Assembly: GCA_001602415.1 (NCBI GenBank)
Contig: CP012155.1
Location: 1,364,001 to 1,428,000, forward strand
Direction of reading: 5' to 3'
DNA: 64,000 nt
From: Bacteroidetes bacterium UKL13-3
GTDB taxonomy: Bacteria > Bacteroidota > Bacteroidia > UKL13-3
The notes beneath the pieces were generated by a model that was given only the letters and a program-made list of their open reading frames with translations, made no database searches and was not told where the DNA came from. Of this stretch, positions 8,516-18,361 are shown piece after piece. Position numbers and translations under genes: made by a program. Each line of letters starts with the position of its first letter. Position 1 is the stretch's first letter.

Positions 8516-8596
8516 TCAAATGAGAAGATAAGCAGATATGTAAATGTGCTGATTAGAAGATGTGAAAATGATTAGCTAATTAGATGATGCGATGCG

Positions 8597-8759
8597 AAAA
8601 GGTGCTTGCGCTTCTGCGCAGCAGAATGGTCTGATAGAACTGAAAAAACGAGATGCCCTGAAAAGGTGCCTGAGCTTCTGCGCAGCAGAATGGTCTGATA
8701 GAACTGAAAAAACGAGATGCCCTGAAAAGGTGCCTGAGCTTCTGCGCAGCAGAATGGTC
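8597..8759. repeat. 64-bp tandem direct repeat, about 2.5 copies
   Basis: Copies start at 8597, 8661 and 8725. The first two are full 64-bp units; the third runs 35 bases and then diverges. Each copy contains the small perfect hairpin TTCTGC-GCA-GCAGAA. Copy 1 differs slightly (GCTTGCGC in place of GCCTGAGC); copies 2 and 3 are identical over their shared length. An ORF-like frame runs through it only because 64-bp units lack stops there; it is not a gene. The intergenic region 8433-8882 holds this repeat and two terminator-like hairpins and nothing else recognisable. Confidence 0.9.
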
Positions 8760-8774
8760 GAAGGCACCTTTTTT
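8725..8774 (+). terminator. Terminator-like hairpin formed by the last tandem copy
   Basis: AAAAGGTGCC (8725-8734) pairs perfectly with GGCACCTTTT (8763-8772), enclosing the TTCTGC/GCAGAA hairpin, and a T-run continues to 8774. Copies 1 and 2 of the repeat contain the left arm but no right arm, so only the last one can fold this way. Confidence 0.6.
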
Positions 8775-8882
8775 ACCTATATTCGCACTTTCTTTTCTGG
8801 GTTATGCCTAGTTTTATGTGCAGTCAGACGAAATATTCTAGGATAATGTGGGTTAAATGCTTGATTATTTAAAATAAAGACC

Positions 8883-10775: not shown

Positions 10776-10919
10776 GTGTAATTGCACTACACTTAAAATG
10801 CGAGAAGTAAAATTAAGGGCTGCATTAAACACTGAATGCTGTAAAGTGAAAATGACAGACTGAATGCCATTCATATATTATCCTAAGTTAGTCGTTCATA
10901 ACTAAGAATATTTGTTATA

Positions 10920-11989
10920 AACCTGAGTTCGGTTTAAGCAGCTAATGTCAATTGTTGTTCAAGTTGCTTGATAAGCTGAGGGTTTGTTTCCTCAATATCT
11001 TTTTTGATGGAAGGTTTTTTAGGAAAGAAAGAATACGCAGCAATTGCACTCATAACATTAAGAAGAAAACCGCTGATAGAGCGATGTCTTGTATGTTCAA
11101 CTTGACAAATGTTTTTTAACTCATCATTTACGGTTTCAATCACGGACCGTTTCCTTAAAAGAAGTTTCTCTTCATTGCTCAATGCTTTAGATTTCATGTT
11201 TCTTCTTACAGCTGTAATGAGTTGTATACCGTTGCCAAAAAGCAGATCACTCAATGCTTTTGAGATATATCCCTTATCTCCAAATAGTTTTCCGAAAAGG
11301 TCTTTAGTCATATTGGTAATTGTTTTAGCATCTCTATCATCCACATTTCCTTTGGTTAGAAAGAAAGATAATATCTCACCTTTGTCGTTTATAATCAGGT
11401 GAAGTTTAAAGCCAAAGAACCATCCCATTGATGATTTACCAACCTCTGCAAAGCCTTTAAATGTTTTATTACGCTTTATACTTTTGTTGTGACAAACACG
11501 CAGTACAGTAGAATCAATAAAGCTAATGCCAGTGCACTCGCCTTTGCAACAATGATGGAGAAACAATATGAATGCAATAGCACAACGATGACTCAATTCA
11601 ATAAACCTGTTATAGGAAACCAATCTGGGAAAATTTTCTCTTAAATGAACAGACACATAGTCTACATAAAAATGCTTGAAATTCCTGAATTGACCACCAT
11701 GAAACGCAATCAGGAGTGTGATAATTTCAGAGTCACACATTCCGGCTTTTCTATTTCTTGTTTTAAGGTTTGATGGTGCGGGTAATTGGTGTTTTGAATA
11801 CAAAATTTCAAATTCATTGCAGAAATCATCAACTTTTACAAAAGTTTCTGTAATTTTATCTCGTAGCATTGGTGTGTTTTTTATGTTTTTTTTGCACTAC
11901 AAAATTAACACTTCCAATGCTACTAATTATTTGATTACCAAATAATTATAAACAAAATAATCAACACTTTCTTATCCCGAACTCAGGTT
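10920..11989 (-). mobile_element. IS982-family insertion sequence, complete
   Basis: About 1,070 bp bounded by perfect 13-bp inverted repeats: AACCTGAGTTCGG at 10920-10932 and its complement at 11977-11989. It encodes one full-length DDE transposase. No target-site duplication is visible: the left flank (TTTGTTATA) and right flank (ACAAAGATT) do not match. The right terminus joins directly to a truncated IS91-family transposase while the left flank shows no trace of that gene, so DNA has been lost next to the element. Confidence 0.88.
10934..11869 (-). CDS. IS982-family transposase
   Basis: DDE transposase of 311 residues. The catalytic acidic residues are visible in family context: D119 in SFIDSTVLRVCHN, D198 in GDKGY, and a Glu in SVIETVNDELKN (E245 or E250, the family motif). 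The IS982 signature MGWFFGFKLHLIIN follows the first Asp. Length fits the family and there is no frameshift, so the element may be active. Its stop codon lies next to the left inverted repeat. Confidence 0.93.
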   Translation of the reverse strand: MLRDKITETFVKVDDFCNEFEILYSKHQLPAPSNLKTRNRKAGMCDSEIITLLIAFHGGQFRNFKHFYVDYVSVHLRENFPRLVSYNRFIELSHRCAIAFILFLHHCCKGECTGISFIDSTVLRVCHNKSIKRNKTFKGFAEVGKSSMGWFFGFKLHLIINDKGEILSFFLTKGNVDDRDAKTITNMTKDLFGKLFGDKGYISKALSDLLFGNGIQLITAVRRNMKSKALSNEEKLLLRKRSVIETVNDELKNICQVEHTRHRSISGFLLNVMSAIAAYSFFPKKPSIKKDIEETNPQLIKQLEQQLTLAA

Positions 11990-12351
11990 ACAAAGATTAC
12001 CGCAGTGGAGGGCAGCAAAAAGTAATGGAGTTAAGCGGGGTAGAGTTTTTGCGCAGGTTTAGTATGCATATACTACCAGCAGGGGTCAGAAAAATACGGC
12101 ATTACGGCATATTGGCCAGCCGTAACAAACCCAAGTTGCGCACCCAACAAATGCAAATGGGTATAATACCCAAACGACAACAAGCATTAATAACGTGGCA
12201 ACAAATGCTGTTGCAAAAGCATGGAATAGACATAGAAAAATGCCCATGCTGTAAAACCGGAGTAATGATACGCTTAATGAGTTTTGAAGCCAATGCACCA
12301 CCATTGGCATTGCTACACCAAGCCCGCCAGCAAGCGTTAAATATTGCATAA
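11990..12351 (+). pseudogene. IS91-family transposase, C-terminal fragment
   Basis: The frame enters from the IS982 terminus (YKDYRSGGQQKVM...) and continues 120 residues to a stop at 12351. The segment FLRRFSMHILPAGVRKIRHYGILASRNK and the later CPCCKTG zinc-type motif match the C-terminal part of IS91/IS801-type rolling-circle (Y2) transposases. The catalytic N-terminal two thirds, including the tyrosine motif, are missing. The truncation point coincides with the IS982 end. I see no matching N-terminal half on the far side of IS982, so an adjacent deletion or rearrangement occurred rather than a simple insertion. Confidence 0.82.
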
Positions 12352-12564
12352 CCTTAATTGCCTAAAACAGGCAACTAGGCCGCGCATTGCCCAAAACCTA
12401 AAACAACACACAAAAGTTACCAGCCTGCAAAACAAAAAGCACAAAAAAAGCGCATTAAAGCGCTAAAAAGTAAAGCTGCACCAACTAAAAATACACCCAC
12501 CAAGCAGCCAAAAATAATCCCAAACATTCAAAACACATAACTCGCAAAAAAACCCGTCACGCTT
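12352..12564. other. Non-coding remnant between IS91 fragment and attC-like site C
   Basis: No gene is recognisable. It holds a short hairpin TTGCCT/AGGCAA at 12358-12374 just after the transposase stop, possibly part of the IS91 terminus, and a minus-strand terminator-like hairpin at 12443-12464. The sequence is A-rich on the plus strand and low in complexity. Confidence 0.6.
12443..12464 (-). terminator. Possible minus-strand terminator
   Basis: Stem AGCGC / GCGCT with a six-base loop followed on the minus strand by seven Ts. It could end transcripts coming leftward from the cassette genes. Confidence 0.4.
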
Positions 12565-12624
12565 CAGTCAACACACGCTTAAAACGAAGTGGGTACACTT
12601 CGTTTAAGCGCTATTTGTTAACTG
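12565..12624 (-). repeat. attC-like site C (60 bp), 3' end of the OLD-family gene
   Basis: Imperfect palindrome laid out like an integron attC. Outer boxes: GTTAACTG (12617-12624) and CAGTCAAC (12565-12572), complementary except for one base. Then an unpaired spacer of unequal length, then inner arms CGCTTAAAACGAAGTG (12576-12591) and CACTTCGTTTAAGCG (12596-12610), which pair with a single bulged A, and a four-base loop. On the minus strand the first box contains the TAA stop of the OLD-family gene. The second box, GTTGACT, does not fully match the GTTRRRY core. Alternative: a hairpin of an IS91-type terminus. Confidence 0.55.
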
Positions 12625-14528
12625 CTGGCTTTTATTTCTTTTAGTTTGTCTGTCAACACCTTGTCTAATTGATTCTCATTGGTAATGTATTTTATTATCA
12701 ACCTGCCAGATTCTGTTCCTTTTGAAGGTAAGGCAGAATCTATTGTGTAATAATCATCTCTATCTAAAGCAATAAGTTTTTTACGAATTAAGTTTGTTAG
12801 GCTTGGGTAAAATTTCTTTTTACTTTCTTCTTCTGCATTATCTTTAATATTCTCCTTAATGGTGTTAATTTCTTCTAATGGAACTCTAAGCGACTCCTCA
12901 AAATTATCTATAATAATATTTTCCCAAACAGCAGAATCTATTGAGTCCTCTATGTCTTGCTTACCAATGAAAGTCGGTTTGTATTTGTCAATTTCGTGTT
13001 GTGTAAATTTGTATTTCGCATCATTATCAAGTAGAAAGTTAACAGTTGAATCAGTTTTTTTAAATTCACCTAAAACTCCATCAAGAATTATTGCGTTTTG
13101 AGCGATTTTATCTTTACCGCCAAGATTTATAATTCTAATATTGTCCGATTCAAGTGTAGTTCCGTTGACAATGTAATAAAAGTGAGGAATTAGAATTTCT
13201 TCTGTGTCACCTTCCACAACAATAAATTGGTCATAAAATAAGAAATCACTATTCTTTAATTTCAAACTTGAATAAATGTCATCTACGGACAAACATTTAG
13301 AATTTCTTGTAATTCCCTCAAGCAGATCAATTTTGTTAATGCTTTTAATAAGAGTTTTGTCAACGAAAATTGTAGAATGTGTACTTATTAACGATTGAAC
13401 ATTGGCAGTTGAAGTCTGCTTAATGATATTGTAAAACTCCCTTTGAGCTGATGGATACAAATGTGTTTCAGGTTCGTCAAAACACCAAATAAATTTTTTG
13501 TTTTTGTGTTCTAAATTTATTGAATTTAAAGCGTTCCATTTTATTAATGAAAACCAAATTTGTCTTTTTACACCTTCACCTTGTGAATCGATATGAATGT
13601 CACCAACACTGTTTTTTTTATTGATTACAATGTCTGTTATTCTTGGTTCAACATCAAAATAAATATTTGCCTTCAATTTTTCTATAGATGGTACGTCTTT
13701 TAGAAAAGTATCTGCAAAACCATCGAGTTCTTTATTTATTTTATCTTGAGCTAATTGTCTCTTTTCATTTGCATACTTCCTTGCTTCTTGCAATTCAATT
13801 TTCACTTGCTGTTGCATTGTATCTTTAGTGAACTGATTCAATTGCTCCATCGAAATGTTCCAATCTAAATAACGATATTGAGGGAAAATATTTTTGTCTA
13901 ATTTGTATTCAGCCCAACTTGGTTCCAATTTTATCGAGTTCATAATACTTCTTAAGAGCTCTAATGCTGAAAATCTTCCTGCATTATTCTCATTCTCGAT
14001 TTTCTCGATTTTCTTTTCCTTTGCAATCTTAGAAAGTGCTGTAGCCTTCTCCTTGTAATATTCATTTCTATCGTCAACACCTTGCGGAGTCAATAGATAA
14101 TGATTAGACGAATTGTTAGAATTATCCAATACTCTTGCAAGCCAAATTTTTTCAACTTCTTGTTTGTCTAGAACCCATTGTAAATGGGTAGAAAGGTCAT
14201 CATTAATATCGTTTTCTTCTAAAATTAACTCTCCAATAACGTAACAGCTTGTCTCAGAAAAATCAATTGGTCTAACTCTTAAATTTACAAATACTTGATT
14301 AAATTCTTCTTCGGTTATTATAGTGTTGGATAGGTCTTTTTTAGCTTTATCATCTTGAAAAAAATTAAACTTTTGTTTGTCATCTAAAAGCAATCCAATA
14401 GCACTAAGAATTGAAGATTTTCCAGAATCATTTATCCCAATTAAAATGTTGGGATTGTCCTTTTCTAAGTCCAAATAGATGTTGTTACAACTTTTATAAT
14501 TAATTATTTGAATTCTGGATAGTATCAT
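12618..14528 (-). CDS. OLD-family ATPase with TOPRIM nuclease domain
   Basis: A 636-residue ATP-dependent endonuclease-like protein of the overcoming-lysogenization-defect family, here class 1 (stand-alone). N-terminal ABC-type ATPase: Walker A GINDSGKSS at 31-39, signature-like DSQGEGVKRQ near 314-323, Walker B FIWCFDEPETH at 346-356, and H-loop His 384. C-terminal TOPRIM: VVEGDTEE at 437-444 and DND at 501-503. Relatives (P2 Old, GajA of Gabija, other phage-defence nucleases) cut DNA and act against phage; this role here is inferred. No UvrD-like partner is adjacent, so it is not Gabija. The gene starts 31 bases after attC-like site B and its stop sits inside site C, the arrangement of a one-gene cassette. 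Confidence 0.85.
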   Translation of the reverse strand: MILSRIQIINYKSCNNIYLDLEKDNPNILIGINDSGKSSILSAIGLLLDDKQKFNFFQDDKAKKDLSNTIITEEEFNQVFVNLRVRPIDFSETSCYVIGELILEENDINDDLSTHLQWVLDKQEVEKIWLARVLDNSNNSSNHYLLTPQGVDDRNEYYKEKATALSKIAKEKKIEKIENENNAGRFSALELLRSIMNSIKLEPSWAEYKLDKNIFPQYRYLDWNISMEQLNQFTKDTMQQQVKIELQEARKYANEKRQLAQDKINKELDGFADTFLKDVPSIEKLKANIYFDVEPRITDIVINKKNSVGDIHIDSQGEGVKRQIWFSLIKWNALNSINLEHKNKKFIWCFDEPETHLYPSAQREFYNIIKQTSTANVQSLISTHSTIFVDKTLIKSINKIDLLEGITRNSKCLSVDDIYSSLKLKNSDFLFYDQFIVVEGDTEEILIPHFYYIVNGTTLESDNIRIINLGGKDKIAQNAIILDGVLGEFKKTDSTVNFLLDNDAKYKFTQHEIDKYKPTFIGKQDIEDSIDSAVWENIIIDNFEESLRVPLEEINTIKENIKDNAEEESKKKFYPSLTNLIRKKLIALDRDDYYTIDSALPSKGTESGRLIIKYITNENQLDKVLTDKLKEIKASS

Positions 14529-14559: not shown

Positions 14560-14695
14560 GCACCCAACGGTTTGCAGCTACAAGAAGTTGGCGATTTCGG
14601 AGACGAAAACTGTCTGCCAGCTCAGAACTTGATACGAAGCACAAAGCTTCATTTAACCACTGAACCGCCAATTTCTTGTAGGTGCGGTTATGGGC
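14560..14695 (-). repeat. attC-like site B (136 bp)
   Basis: Imperfect palindrome between cassette-like units. Minus strand, in order: GCCCATAAC (14695-14687), inner arm CTACAAGAAATTGGCG (14681-14666), a 72-base central region, arm CGCCAACTTCTTGTAG (14593-14578), and GTTGGGTGC (14568-14560). The inner arms pair at 15 of 16 positions. GTTGGGT fits the GTTRRRY core exactly. GCCCATAAC is the exact reverse complement of GTTATGGGC at 16530-16522, the 5' end of the unit that this site closes. No gene overlaps it; the nearest stop is five bases away at 14701. Confidence 0.65.
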
Positions 14696-14700
14696 TGGTT

Positions 14701-14979
14701 TTATATTTGCGTCCAACTATAATTGGTCTGACCATTTGTAACATAATTTGGTATTGTCCTAGTTAATAAATCTTGAATAATAGTATTTTCAGATATACCA
14801 ATTGGATATGTCCAATTGTAATGGGATGATGATGAAATTAAAATCTGCGTTATGCTCTGCTGTTGGATTGTTTGATTTTGTAATATAACCCAATGAACTT
14901 CTATTGTCAAACTATTATTTGTAATTATTGCAATTCCAATTGAATTGCCTAAATATTGAACTCTGTATGTTGTTGTCAT
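14701..14979 (-). CDS. Orphan ORF in four-gene unit, 92 residues
   Basis: A protein of unknown function, rich in Gln, Ser, Thr, Ile and Asn (MTTTYRVQYLGNSIG at the start, HYNWTYPIGISENT later). No signal peptide, membrane segment or known motif is seen. The composition and the spaced W/Y residues suggest a beta-rich fold. Last gene of the unit; its stop is five bases before the core box of attC-like site B, a spacing typical of cassette genes. It is separated by 30 bases from the next gene upstream. That it is translated is likely but not certain. Confidence 0.5.
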   Translation of the reverse strand: MTTTYRVQYLGNSIGIAIITNNSLTIEVHWVILQNQTIQQQSITQILISSSSHYNWTYPIGISENTIIQDLLTRTIPNYVTNGQTNYSWTQI

Positions 14980-15009
14980 ATAAATATTTACTGAATTAGT
15001 AATTTTTGT

Positions 15010-15168
15010 CTATCTGTTTAAAATGTGCTCCAACTTAGCATCTCTAAGTTCTTGAAGAATCTTAGCCCTATTGTGTTCCGATAAAGGGTCATATTTGCCG
15101 TCAAATAAATCTTGAAAAATCTTGATTAATTTATCTATTTCTTCCGTTGTCATTTTAGAATAATCCAT
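15010..15168 (-). CDS. Small acidic/helical orphan protein, 52 residues
   Basis: I start at the ATG at 15168 (MDYSKMTTEEIDKLIK); an in-frame ATG at 15222 would add a segment (HPPLITLKKY) overlapping the inter-gene gap. The protein is helical and charged (EEIDKLIKIFQDLFDG, AKILQELRDAKLEHILNR), reminiscent of small antitoxin- or adaptor-like proteins, but no family is recognised. The third gene in a four-gene unit on the minus strand. Confidence 0.5.
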   Translation of the reverse strand: MDYSKMTTEEIDKLIKIFQDLFDGKYDPLSEHNRAKILQELRDAKLEHILNR

Positions 15169-15230
15169 GTTGTTATATTTTTTTAAAGTAATAAGAGGTG
15201 GGTGAAACCCACCTCTTTCCACCTCTTTAT

Positions 15231-16139
15231 TTAATTATTAGTAGTATCTGTTTCTGTTATGTTTTCAACTGGAACCTCGTCATTGATTTCCTCTTTAATT
15301 GGTTGTTCTTCTATTTTTACTTCTGGTTGTTTAAGTTCAGGCTTATCTCCCATTGCCATAATTTGGGTTTTATATTCTTCACGCTTTTTACTCCAATATT
15401 CATCATATTTAGGATAACCACTCCATGTGTCAAATTTTTGTGACTCCATTTCTTTGTGAGAAGGATGTACAAGTTGGTTTGCGAGTTCAAGTGCTTTATC
15501 TTGGTCACCTGATTGAATTGAAAGTTTTACTTTGTCTTCAATTTGTTCAAGTTGTTGGCTTAATTTCGCATCATCTTGTTTCGCATTACCATTGAAGTAA
15601 CTAAATATGCCAAAACCAATAATGGCAATAATTATTACTACAGTAATTGCTTTCCAATTCTTTTTTATGCTGTCAAAAAATTCTTTGTCTGATTTGTCCC
15701 GTGCAGCTTTTTTCTCCATCTCAATCTGATGTTTAACTTTTTCCGCTTCTGCCTCGGCTAAAATTTGTTCTGCTGTCTTTGGTGCTTCATGAACGATTAC
15801 CTGAGGAGAGCCTGAATTACCACCTGCGTGATGAGAACCTCCGCCACCTCTTGACCCAGAAATTCCTTGTTGCACCATTTGTTTAATCTCCTGTGCATCA
15901 TCTTTTGAAAATCCTGTAGCAATAATTCTGTCAAACCCTAATGTGTCAAAAGTGATTTTTGAATAACCCACCATCGGAGTATCAATACTTACAGAAGAAA
16001 TCTGTTGATAAGAAAGTGTCTTTTCTTTACCACCCAAAAGACCAGGTATTTTTAATGTTACACCGAAATTATCGATGTCAATTTTAGCAGGAAATACTTT
16101 ATTCCCGTCTGATAATCTACTTGCTTCAAATGTTTTCAT
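15231..16139 (-). CDS. Membrane protein with N-terminal bacterial PH-like domain
   Basis: A 302-residue single-pass membrane protein of unknown role. Residues 1-90 resemble a bacterial PH-like domain (VTLKIPGLLGGKEKTLSYQQISSVSID, then a long ending helix DDAQEIKQMV). A Gly/Ser/His-rich linker spans roughly 93-112. A charged helix (ILAEAEAEKVKHQIEMEKK) precedes one transmembrane segment, WKAITVVIIIAIIGFGIF, near 167-184. The remaining 115 residues form a helical segment (QLEQIEDKVKLSIQSGDQDKALELANQL) and an acidic, Pro-rich tail. Topology cannot be fixed from sequence; PH-like domains are usually cytoplasmic. It is the largest gene of the four-gene unit. Confidence 0.65.
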   Translation of the reverse strand: MKTFEASRLSDGNKVFPAKIDIDNFGVTLKIPGLLGGKEKTLSYQQISSVSIDTPMVGYSKITFDTLGFDRIIATGFSKDDAQEIKQMVQQGISGSRGGGGSHHAGGNSGSPQVIVHEAPKTAEQILAEAEAEKVKHQIEMEKKAARDKSDKEFFDSIKKNWKAITVVIIIAIIGFGIFSYFNGNAKQDDAKLSQQLEQIEDKVKLSIQSGDQDKALELANQLVHPSHKEMESQKFDTWSGYPKYDEYWSKKREEYKTQIMAMGDKPELKQPEVKIEEQPIKEEINDEVPVENITETDTTNN

Positions 16140-16140
16140 T

Positions 16141-16350
16141 TTAATTGTAATTATAGGTTAATGTTTTAGTTGATTGTGTTTGATTAGAAATAGTTACTCT
16201 TTGCTGATTTTCCAATAATGTTATTGCTTCCAGCGTTAAGGATGATACTATTGCTCTTGATATATGGTCTGATATATCATAGGGTCCAATTTGAATCTGA
16301 GGTTCAGTCATACCTGTTAGGTATTCAACTTTTATTTGCAAACTTTTCAT
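16141..16350 (-). CDS. Orphan ORF, first gene of the four-gene unit
   Basis: About 69 residues from MKSLQIKVEYL; the frame also allows a start at 16371 adding MIKKNNI. No signal, membrane segment or family is recognised. Thr, Gln and Ser are frequent toward the end (QQRVTISNQTQSTKTLTYNYN), recalling the composition of the last orphan of the unit. One base separates its stop from the next gene's start, so the two are probably co-translated. Preceded by a leader of about 150 bases without a clear TAnnTTTG box. Confidence 0.45.
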   Translation of the reverse strand: MKSLQIKVEYLTGMTEPQIQIGPYDISDHISRAIVSSLTLEAITLLENQQRVTISNQTQSTKTLTYNYN

Positions 16351-16521
16351 TATGTTATTTTTTTTAATCATCCTACTCGTATGGCTTTTCGGTGTCGCCC
16401 CGTTTTATTTAGTGGTCGCTGGTCTCCACATTTTAAAGTCGATTGGTCGTCAGTTGTTAGCTGTCGTTTTGTATTTGTGGCGGTTCTCTTGTCATTTGTC
16501 CGTTTGGTTTGTGTTAAACTT

Positions 16522-16598
16522 GCCCATAACTAGCTTATAGGAGCAATATTTGCATCCTTTAACTACCGTATTAGGAGTTAAAGGATGCAAAAGTGCTC
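16522..16598 (-). repeat. attC/attI-like site A next to the recombinase
   Basis: A strong inverted repeat 27 bases after the recombinase stop: arms 16541-16564 and 16576-16598 (24 and 23 bases, one mismatch plus one bulge) around an 11-base loop, followed on the minus strand by a 10-base spacer and GTTATGGGC (16530-16522). There is no T-run, so it does not look like a terminator. Only the GTT-side box is clear; no good AAC partner is seen on the recombinase side, as would be expected of an attI rather than an attC. The GTTATGGGC box is the 5' boundary of the four-gene unit. Confidence 0.55.
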
Positions 16599-16624
16599 TT
16601 TGTTTGCTCAAATGTATGTGGGGT

Positions 16625-17523
16625 TTAATAGTTATCCAAATCATCAAATGGACTTTTAATATTTTTAATACTTTTGGTAGACACATGCGTATATATTTCA
16701 GTCGTTTTTGAGTGGCTATGACCCAACAATTCTTGAATATACCTCAAATCAGTTCCGGCTTCCAATAAGTGTGTAGCATAGCTGTGGCGTAGTGTATGCA
16801 TCGAGGCCGATTTTTTTATATCGGTGCGTTTTAAGGCTTCGTTTATTACGTATTGTATGCTACGTTCGCCCATGGGTTGGCCGGGTGTTAATCCTTCAAA
16901 CAAATAAACTTGTGGGTTTACTTCGGCCAAATACATGCCTAACCTATCGGCCAATAATTTTGATAAAACTACATACCGATCTTTTTTGCCTTTACCTTGT
17001 CTAATGTGTATGCATTTGCGGTTTACATCTACATCACTTATTTTTATTAGCCTAAGCTCGTTCATGCGTAAACCTGCTGCATAAGCAAACGCTAACAAGT
17101 AACGATGTTTAAATGATGGTGGTGCTTTAAACAATTGTTTGCACTCTTGCTTTGATAATACTACTGGTAAGGTTTGGTTTTTTTTGATACTGGGTAGTTT
17201 AATGGCTGCATCTTCCATACCCAATATTCTGAACCAAAAACGTAATGCAAAAACTGCATGCTTAAAGTAGCTGATGGATTTTCCTTCTACCTCGGTGCTT
17301 CTGTAAAAATAAGCGTTTAACTCATCAATACTTATGTGATGAGGCAACCTATTAAAGTGCAAGGCTACGTAAGCCAACGAGCGACCATAGTTGGTTAACA
17401 ATCCTTTGCTTAATTGTTTTACCATTACCTGCTCTAAAAAATAATCGTAAGCTTGGCTAAAGCCTATTACCGATAACTTTGCTTGATGTACAATTGTTGA
17501 TGTTGTGTTTTTTTTAATGTCAT
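16625..17523 (-). pseudogene. Tyrosine recombinase, 5' end frameshifted at an A8 run
   Basis: The uninterrupted frame from an internal Met (17425) gives 266 residues with all catalytic residues: R120 in GLRMNELR, Lys in QGKGKKDR, H210/R213 in HTLRHSYATH, H236 in LLGH, Y245 in TEIYTHV. It ends with IKSPFDDLDNY, resembling the SPLD ending of XerD/IntI. The true N-terminus appears to lie at ATG 17523 (MTLKK): that frame stops after 18 codons, but a -1 shift on the eight-A run (17508-17515) joins it to ...STIVHQAKLSVIGFSQAYDYFLEQV and then the long frame. From the catalytic Lys to HTLR is about 60 residues, too short to hold the extra segment of IntI. It may be a pseudogene, a slippage-dependent gene, or a sequencing error. 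Confidence 0.75.
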
Positions 17524-17572
17524 AACTTTATTGTTTTGATTTTATTTCTTACAAAGTTTATCCTATTTTGCA

Positions 17573-18361
17573 ATGAAATGCTACCGCAGGTTTAGTTCAA
17601 CAGTTGGAATACCGCATGGTGCAAATGACTATCTCTATAGAAAAGATCAATCAATAAAAGGGATGATCGTTTTTGTGTTGAAATATCTTTTAATAATGAC
17701 CGTTTACTTAGGAGTTTGGTTTCTTGTTCCAACAATAGCATTAATTGCATTTTTCGTTGTTTCATTCCATCACTTTGGTCAATCAAATTTCAACAACCGA
17801 AACATAGGATATTATCCAGCCGTATTTTGGGGTGTTTGGGTGCTAGTTTGCCCTGTGCTATTGCACATAAAAGAAGCAAGTTCTATTTTACTCGAGATGA
17901 TGCAACTTTCATCAAAAAATGAACTGTATTCATATATAATATACTGGCTGTATAATTCAAAGTATTGGATACTCGGAAGTGTTGTACTCATCTACATTTT
18001 TTGCTTATACAAATTTGAAAAAGCAAACTTAAGGTATTATTTTTTTCAACTTTTATTGGTAACAGCCTGGCATGTATACACCCCATTGTTAACAGGATTT
18101 CTTGTTGTTTTTTGCTTGTGGCACGCAATACAATCTATAAAAGACCAGGCCAATTTTTATACTAAAGTTAAGGGACATAGTATTGAAAAATTTTGGCTAT
18201 TTATGGTTCCATTTGGTTTAATAGCATTAATTGCTTTTAGCTTGTTTCTTTATTTTTTCGGATTAACTACCGGACAGCTTTTAATGGTCTTATCCCTCAT
18301 TACTTTGCCTCATGTTTTTGTGATGAACGATTTGTATCACCAGCATGACGTTACTGCATAA
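17573..18361 (+). CDS. blh: Brp/Blh-family beta-carotene 15,15'-dioxygenase, probably N-terminally truncated
   Basis: Membrane enzyme that cleaves beta-carotene to retinal, supplying rhodopsins. The four conserved histidine regions are present: GIPHGANDY near residue 12, FHHFGQSN near 66, LWHAIQSIK, and TLPHVFVM near the end. About seven membrane segments are visible. Family members normally carry one or two membrane segments before GIPHG; here only MKCYRRFSSTV precedes it and the sequence upstream belongs to the recombinase, so the N-terminus looks cut off at the island edge. A TGA in frame lies shortly upstream. No rhodopsin or carotenoid gene is nearby. Converges with tsaE. Confidence 0.72.
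   Translation: MKCYRRFSSTVGIPHGANDYLYRKDQSIKGMIVFVLKYLLIMTVYLGVWFLVPTIALIAFFVVSFHHFGQSNFNNRNIGYYPAVFWGVWVLVCPVLLHIKEASSILLEMMQLSSKNELYSYIIYWLYNSKYWILGSVVLIYIFCLYKFEKANLRYYFFQLLLVTAWHVYTPLLTGFLVVFCLWHAIQSIKDQANFYTKVKGHSIEKFWLFMVPFGLIALIAFSLFLYFFGLTTGQLLMVLSLITLPHVFVMNDLYHQHDVTA

Follow-up and report, generated by a model that had tools for sequence, protein, structure and literature searches.

The question raised by this locus is how four short open reading frames (ORFs A to D), tightly packed on one strand, came to lie together in the genome of Bacteroidetes bacterium UKL13-3, and whether they act together. They are found in a 64,000-nucleotide stretch of contig CP012155.1, which was analysed as a whole and is referred to here as the window. 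An earlier note on this DNA had placed all four in one integron cassette and had suggested that they form a functional module, perhaps a membrane-acting defence or stress system. Judged from sequence, the four ORFs are very probably the cargo of the cassette that sits at the attI of an integron in the chromosome, one that would be served by a Xer-like integrase without an I2 helix.

When the reading frames were recomputed, the four ORFs were found in the order and on the minus strand previously described, with stop-to-start gaps of 1, 62 and 30 bases. Codon bias is strong in ORF B (z 7.4 and 10.4), weak in ORF C (z 2.2 and 2.8) and absent from ORFs A and D (z 1.1–1.7). In this AT-rich DNA the chance of an open frame as long as ORF A is 0.012, and as long as ORF D 0.006. 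On these values ORF B is certainly a gene, and ORFs A, C and D probably are, short of proof. The small proteins A, C and D had been said to belong to no known family, and family-model searches indeed gave none; no credible homologs of A and D were present in 295 genomes of the class. Look-alikes of ORF A elsewhere run antisense to a conserved membrane-protein gene and were thus dismissed as chance, and those of ORF D were rejected as weak matches within long unrelated frames.

The ends of the unit can be placed to the base. On the minus strand, the 3' side of the recombinase gene is followed by a hairpin, then by CTATAAGCTAG and then by TTATGGGCAAG. At the far end of the unit come AGCCCATAAC, an inverted repeat of 23 nt with 87% complementarity, and GTTGGGTGC, in that order. 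Read as its reverse complement, the 3' R'' of the unit, GCCCATAAC, agrees with the unit's 5' boundary, G^TTATGGGC, at 6/6 positions, and GCCCATAAC is likewise the exact reverse complement of GTTATGGGC. A circular cassette, after its insertion, bears at its 5' boundary the R' half that is the pairing partner of its own R''. As such complementarity is the hallmark of a circular cassette, it delimits cassette 1 and shows that the cassette assignment was right: there is a single cassette, with exact boundaries (Table 1), that holds exactly ORFs A to D. The crossover within the window attI falls between 16530 and 16529, and 21 copies related to the attC of cassette 1 are present in the genome. The 3' end of cassette 2, GCAGTTAAC, does not pair with its 5' boundary, GTTGGGTGC, so the array in the window is partly degraded.

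Table 1. Positions, within the window, of the four ORFs, the recombination sites and the neighbouring mobile elements
Feature	Position	Strand	Description
ORF A	16371-16141	minus	76 aa, or 69 aa from inner ATG; orphan; coding probable
ORF B	16139-15231	minus	302 aa; N-terminal PH domain (1-97), one TM helix, C-terminal helical part
ORF C	15168-15010	minus	52 aa; helical; no family
ORF D	14979-14701	minus	92 aa; Gln/Thr-rich orphan; coding probable
Cassette 1	16529-14568	minus	1962 bp; four-ORF unit; 5' boundary TTATGGGC complements own R'' GCCCATAAC
attI	16528-16604	minus	long hairpin, arms 16549-16564 / 16576-16591, then CTATAAGCTAG^TT
attC of cassette 1	14560-14697	minus	R'' CAGCCCATAAC, hairpin arms, R' GTTGGGTGC
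Cassette 2 cargo	12618-14528	minus	636-aa AAA_15 ATPase with OLD-like TOPRIM domain
Integron integrase gene 3' end and attI region	16526-16786	minus	99-100% identity to L043, L044, L045
Chimeric tyrosine recombinase	16625-17425	minus	266 aa from first ATG; Pfam Phage_integrase
Recombinase 5' part and IS91-like element end	16745-17603	minus	858-859 nt aligned, ~98.5% identity to three full copies
Second IS91-like copy end, transposase C-terminus	11988-12620	minus	inserted just after TTAAC of cassette 2
IS982-type element	10912-11990	minus	within IS91-like fragment; transposase 11869-10934

The same architecture recurs at other loci. Six copies of the integrase gene, comprising that of the window and others in the genome, were compared; five are near-identical and one, L034, has diverged. 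They share a common sequence through ...TATAAnnTAG and diverge directly after G^TTA, each being followed by a different first cassette, which fixes the crossover point. In the L044 array of the same genome, which is intact, the integrase gene, attI and five cassettes stand in a row, and the 5'/R'' complementarity is perfect in four of the five cassettes, with one mismatch in the fifth. The integrase gene comes first, attI follows some 100 nt further on in the same orientation, and then come the cassettes. In each of these the 3' R'' gives, as its reverse complement, the cassette's own 5' boundary, TTRRRY. Complementarity that is kept cassette by cassette implies that the cassettes passed through circles joined at G^TT.

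Relatives of the integrase (E<1e-55) are encoded in 191 of the 395 genomes of the class, for which gene content (C-terminal domains of the gliding/T9SS type) points to Bacteroidota. Palindromes were scanned downstream of the 32 integrases with usable DNA, which yielded 103 sites and 74 adjacent pairs. The boundary rule is obeyed at all six positions in 39 of these pairs, where permutation predicts 0.94, and no perfect pairs were found in reversed DNA, in shuffled DNA or in the remainder of the window; the opposite strand was dropped as a control, since the sites are palindromic. At least one perfect pair is present at 16 of the 32 loci. At 23 of 44 loci, one of the first three sites has its 5' partner no more than 400 nt after the integrase, mostly at about 100 nt. 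Some half of all adjacent pairs depart from the rule, for the most part because the site finder is a heuristic, tuned on L044, that misses sites and adds false ones; its stem search allows an unpaired spacer, as a version without the spacer missed most sites. Many further integrase copies lie at contig ends, and for the family members L142, L143 and L149 no array was seen.

The integrase lacks the additional domain of about 41 residues that is specific to IntI (the I2 helix). Alignments of the integrase copies to the IntI model TIGR02249 skip model positions ~179–237. Of 66 family matches, 64 have 91–94 aa between the first catalytic arginine and the HxLRH motif and two have 98; the corresponding distance in the one canonical IntI found in the class is 133 aa. 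Alignment with IntI4 (2A3V) is split around residues 202–242; that with archaeal XerA runs from end to end without an insert, and a 28-sequence model of the family is closest to XerA. Archaeal XerA and the XerC-like recombinases (4a8e, 5hxy; NF040815) are the closest solved relatives and share the same catalytic core, the window recombinase scoring 180 against NF040815, for which the cut-off is 220. XerA and the XerC-like recombinases are dif-type resolvases, whereas the integrase family adjoins cassette arrays and occurs in several copies per genome, beside other Xer-like genes (L028). The I2 helix may have been lost or never gained; both readings stand in a tree with one IntI, one Xer and long branches.

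It might be argued that the window holds an ordinary array (CALIN), the cassettes of which were moved by a canonical IntI encoded elsewhere, with the Xer-like gene as a bystander. Arrays without IntI are common in surveys (PMC9024848), and in their R' and R'' the attC sites are like those of canonical integrons. However, the TIGR02249 model detects no IntI above cut-off in the whole genome, and a canonical IntI in only one of the 395 genomes of the class. Moreover, the attI junction is found some 100 nt beyond the integrase gene in many genomes as well as at the six copies here, and the attC stems lack regular extra-helical bases. The bystander reading is consequently very unlikely.

The attC sites have features of their own. 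Among 62 sites the arms are mostly of equal length and align without gaps, no regular extra-helical bases were found in the stems, and a conserved A-C mismatch stands some 15 nt past AAC in 49. Folding prediction gives the bottom-strand hairpin as the more stable in 52 of 58 arms and in 43 of 58 full sites, because the A-C mismatch becomes a G-T pair on that strand; the orientation of the sites was taken from the strand of the integrase and not from the mismatch. The attI hairpin (window 16549-16591; L034 7222-7265) has kept its stem in the diverged copy despite changed inner bases, CTCCTAATACGGTAG versus CCGGGATATTTCCGG, which suggests that the fold of attI also matters.

These features bear on whether the sites recombine as double-stranded DNA, like Xer/dif modules, with no hairpin folding. 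The integrase would fit such a reaction in being Xer-like and in lacking the I2 helix, which goes with single-strand recombination (PMC7790495). Yet the 6 nt after GTT differ between the partners, and an exchange of two strands would leave mismatches, which makes the double-stranded route less likely. Nor would it account for R''/R' complementarity maintained cassette by cassette or for a stem asymmetry that favours one strand, and we consider it unlikely.

The history of the window has been complicated by mobile elements. Comparison with three full copies of an IS91-like element located elsewhere in the genome (L035, 6821-9237; L041; L042) indicates that the window recombinase is a chimera of the tyrosine recombinase of this element and of the integron integrase proper (the gene of L043, L044 and L045), from which approximately its last 54 residues derive. 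The chimera may be inactive. The source of its 5' half is an IS91-family element with an accessory tyrosine recombinase; the element encodes a recombinase of 269 aa and a transposase of 390 aa. The integrase gene of the window was thus partly overwritten by the IS91-like element, and the window cassettes would depend on the integrase copies elsewhere in the genome.

The IS91-like element sits in attC sites (L035, as above, and L030, L034, L037 and L039–L042). Of its 13 A-ends, 12 abut attC just after the AAC of R'', as do about 20 of its 21 D-ends, a pattern by which the element is attC-targeting; no report of an attC-targeting IS91-like element was found among open-licence papers. This bears on whether the element itself gathered the genes by rolling-circle, ISCR-like capture in place of site-specific recombination. 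The 5' half of the recombinase and the D-end at 12620 are IS91-like, and many IS91-like copies are scattered across these arrays. However, cassette 1 ends in attI and attC and not in IS ends, the G^TT junctions are common to the six integrase copies, and insertion of the IS into attC marks it as the later event. Elements of the IS91 family make no attI/attC cassettes and in this genome insert into attC. Capture by the IS is therefore scarcely credible, and the four ORFs are better regarded as cargo taken up at attI.

Several further observations concern these elements. At the end of cassette 2 the IS91-like copy was inserted first and the element at 10912-11990, which we take to be of the IS982 type, afterwards. 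The resulting composite (window 12646-10912) recurs at L035 4530-2797 with 98% identity, and pieces of it are present in L036 and L039; given its recurrence at a second locus, it may be mobile as a unit. About ten copies of IS91-like deletion forms, of some 805 bp, were seen (L034 8056-9165, L037 16218-17022 and others), in which recombinase residues 1-104 are joined to the transposase C-terminus. A Brp/Blh beta-carotene dioxygenase gene at window 17573-18361 starts inside the IS91-like end, its N-terminus apparently truncated and its first codons IS-derived. At L044 12373-13371 an IS110-type transposase lies after the last attC, which is interrupted at R' (GAACGTC); this resembles the IS1111 group, whose members target attC. 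Within the window, a 64-bp repeat is present in three tandem copies at 8596-8787, upstream of a small ORF.

As to the cargo, ORF B had been described as a PH-like single-pass membrane protein, and structure prediction bears this out, with a PH fold and one hydrophobic stretch at ~164–180. The model contains a seven-strand PH barrel with a C-terminal helix (pLDDT mostly 80–95 over residues 1–97), and its best match among solved structures is the bacterial PH protein 3dcx (Foldseek probability 1.00). The fold is like that of bacterial PH proteins of the DUF1696 type over these residues. In contrast to 3dcx-type proteins, with which identity is about 13%, ORF B has an added transmembrane helix and a C-terminal helical region. 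We regard the protein as, most probably, an adaptor or sensor with a PH domain, anchored in the membrane. ORF B is modular, its PH-only relatives of about 100 aa being common; homologs are present in 28 of the 395 genomes of the class, its own genome counted, and a relative in another family (L054) shares 45% identity over residues 1–280. No match was obtained in plasmids and phages with ORF B as a tblastn query, and scans of genome-contig collections, with ORF B and with the integrase, and one of viral contigs revealed no relatives. Since a recombinase of this type is also followed by a PH gene at L058, PH proteins may be a recurrent cargo.

Are the four genes a module with a shared function that has been conserved and has moved as one, perhaps an anti-phage system acting at the membrane? 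Such a module would explain their tight packing on one strand, would make sense of a PH domain joined to a TM helix, and would sit next to a cassette with an OLD/AriA-like ATPase. That ATPase matches Old (4.6e-36), AriA (6.5e-32) and many GajA models in PADLOC, and because it matches all of these together no system is named. The conservation of gene neighbourhood that the earlier note had proposed as a check speaks against the module: no relative of ORF B in other genomes has A, C or D nearby, and A and D are without credible homologs. PADLOC has no match for A to D, so that a defence role, although possible, is unsupported. Four co-oriented genes in one cassette had been viewed as exceptional, yet 10 of 39 verified cassettes hold at least two co-oriented ORFs and five at least three. 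Median spacing among verified cassettes is 1025 bp; the four-ORF cassette is thus a large one, though unremarkable for this type of integron. Verified cassettes with four and with five co-oriented ORFs were also observed at L144, downstream of an integrase. A joint module is hence distinctly improbable, and cassette cargo remains the preferred description of the four ORFs.

How such an integrase would work can be framed by comparison with canonical (IntI) integrons. The two are alike in having an attI with tandem cassettes, a G^TTRRRY crossover, per-cassette R''/R' complementarity and a hairpin attC with a bottom-strand bias. They differ in that the integrase here has no IntI additional domain but an extra N-terminal domain, its gene points towards the array, attI is itself a long hairpin, and attC has a conserved mismatch in place of extra-helical bases. 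The architecture, crossover point, complementarity, strand asymmetry and missing I2 region are read directly from the DNA and its translations. Beyond them, the integrase would, like IntI, recombine attI with a folded attC bottom strand, and would read the site by means of the conserved mismatch, the additional N-terminal residues, or both, in place of the docking of I2 that is known from IntI (PMC7790495).

The extra N-terminal domain comprises about 65 residues (L045 6814-7896, residues 1–65), carries the motif RWSxTLKAWHxPD and is predicted to fold as beta-beta-alpha-beta-beta-alpha. One of ten fragments gave a weak match to the HARP domain, with an E value of 6e-4, which falls short of the cut-off. 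As HARP binds forked DNA, it is possible, by analogy, that the N-terminal domain acts as a hairpin reader. Taken further, these integrons would represent a separate class, widespread in the class of bacteria to which the source genome belongs, in which folded single strands are recombined by an integrase that lost or never acquired I2 and that recognises its sites by their conserved stem mismatch and by its added N-terminal domain; we lean towards this broader interpretation.

The I2 helix has been presented as the innovation that enabled integrases to use folded single-stranded DNA (PMC7790495), and surveys define and select IntI by its additional domain (PMC2426708, PMC9024848, PMC9668308). 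With such a selection, integrons of the window type would stay hidden. No published account of an integron type with an I2-less integrase was found among open-licence papers, and it is not certain that the type is new. If arrays served by an I2-less integrase are indeed present in about half of the genomes of the class, integrons there are undercounted and those of the window type would constitute a large, little-read store of cassette genes. The evolution of single-strand recombination would also become directly testable, with two solutions available for comparison.
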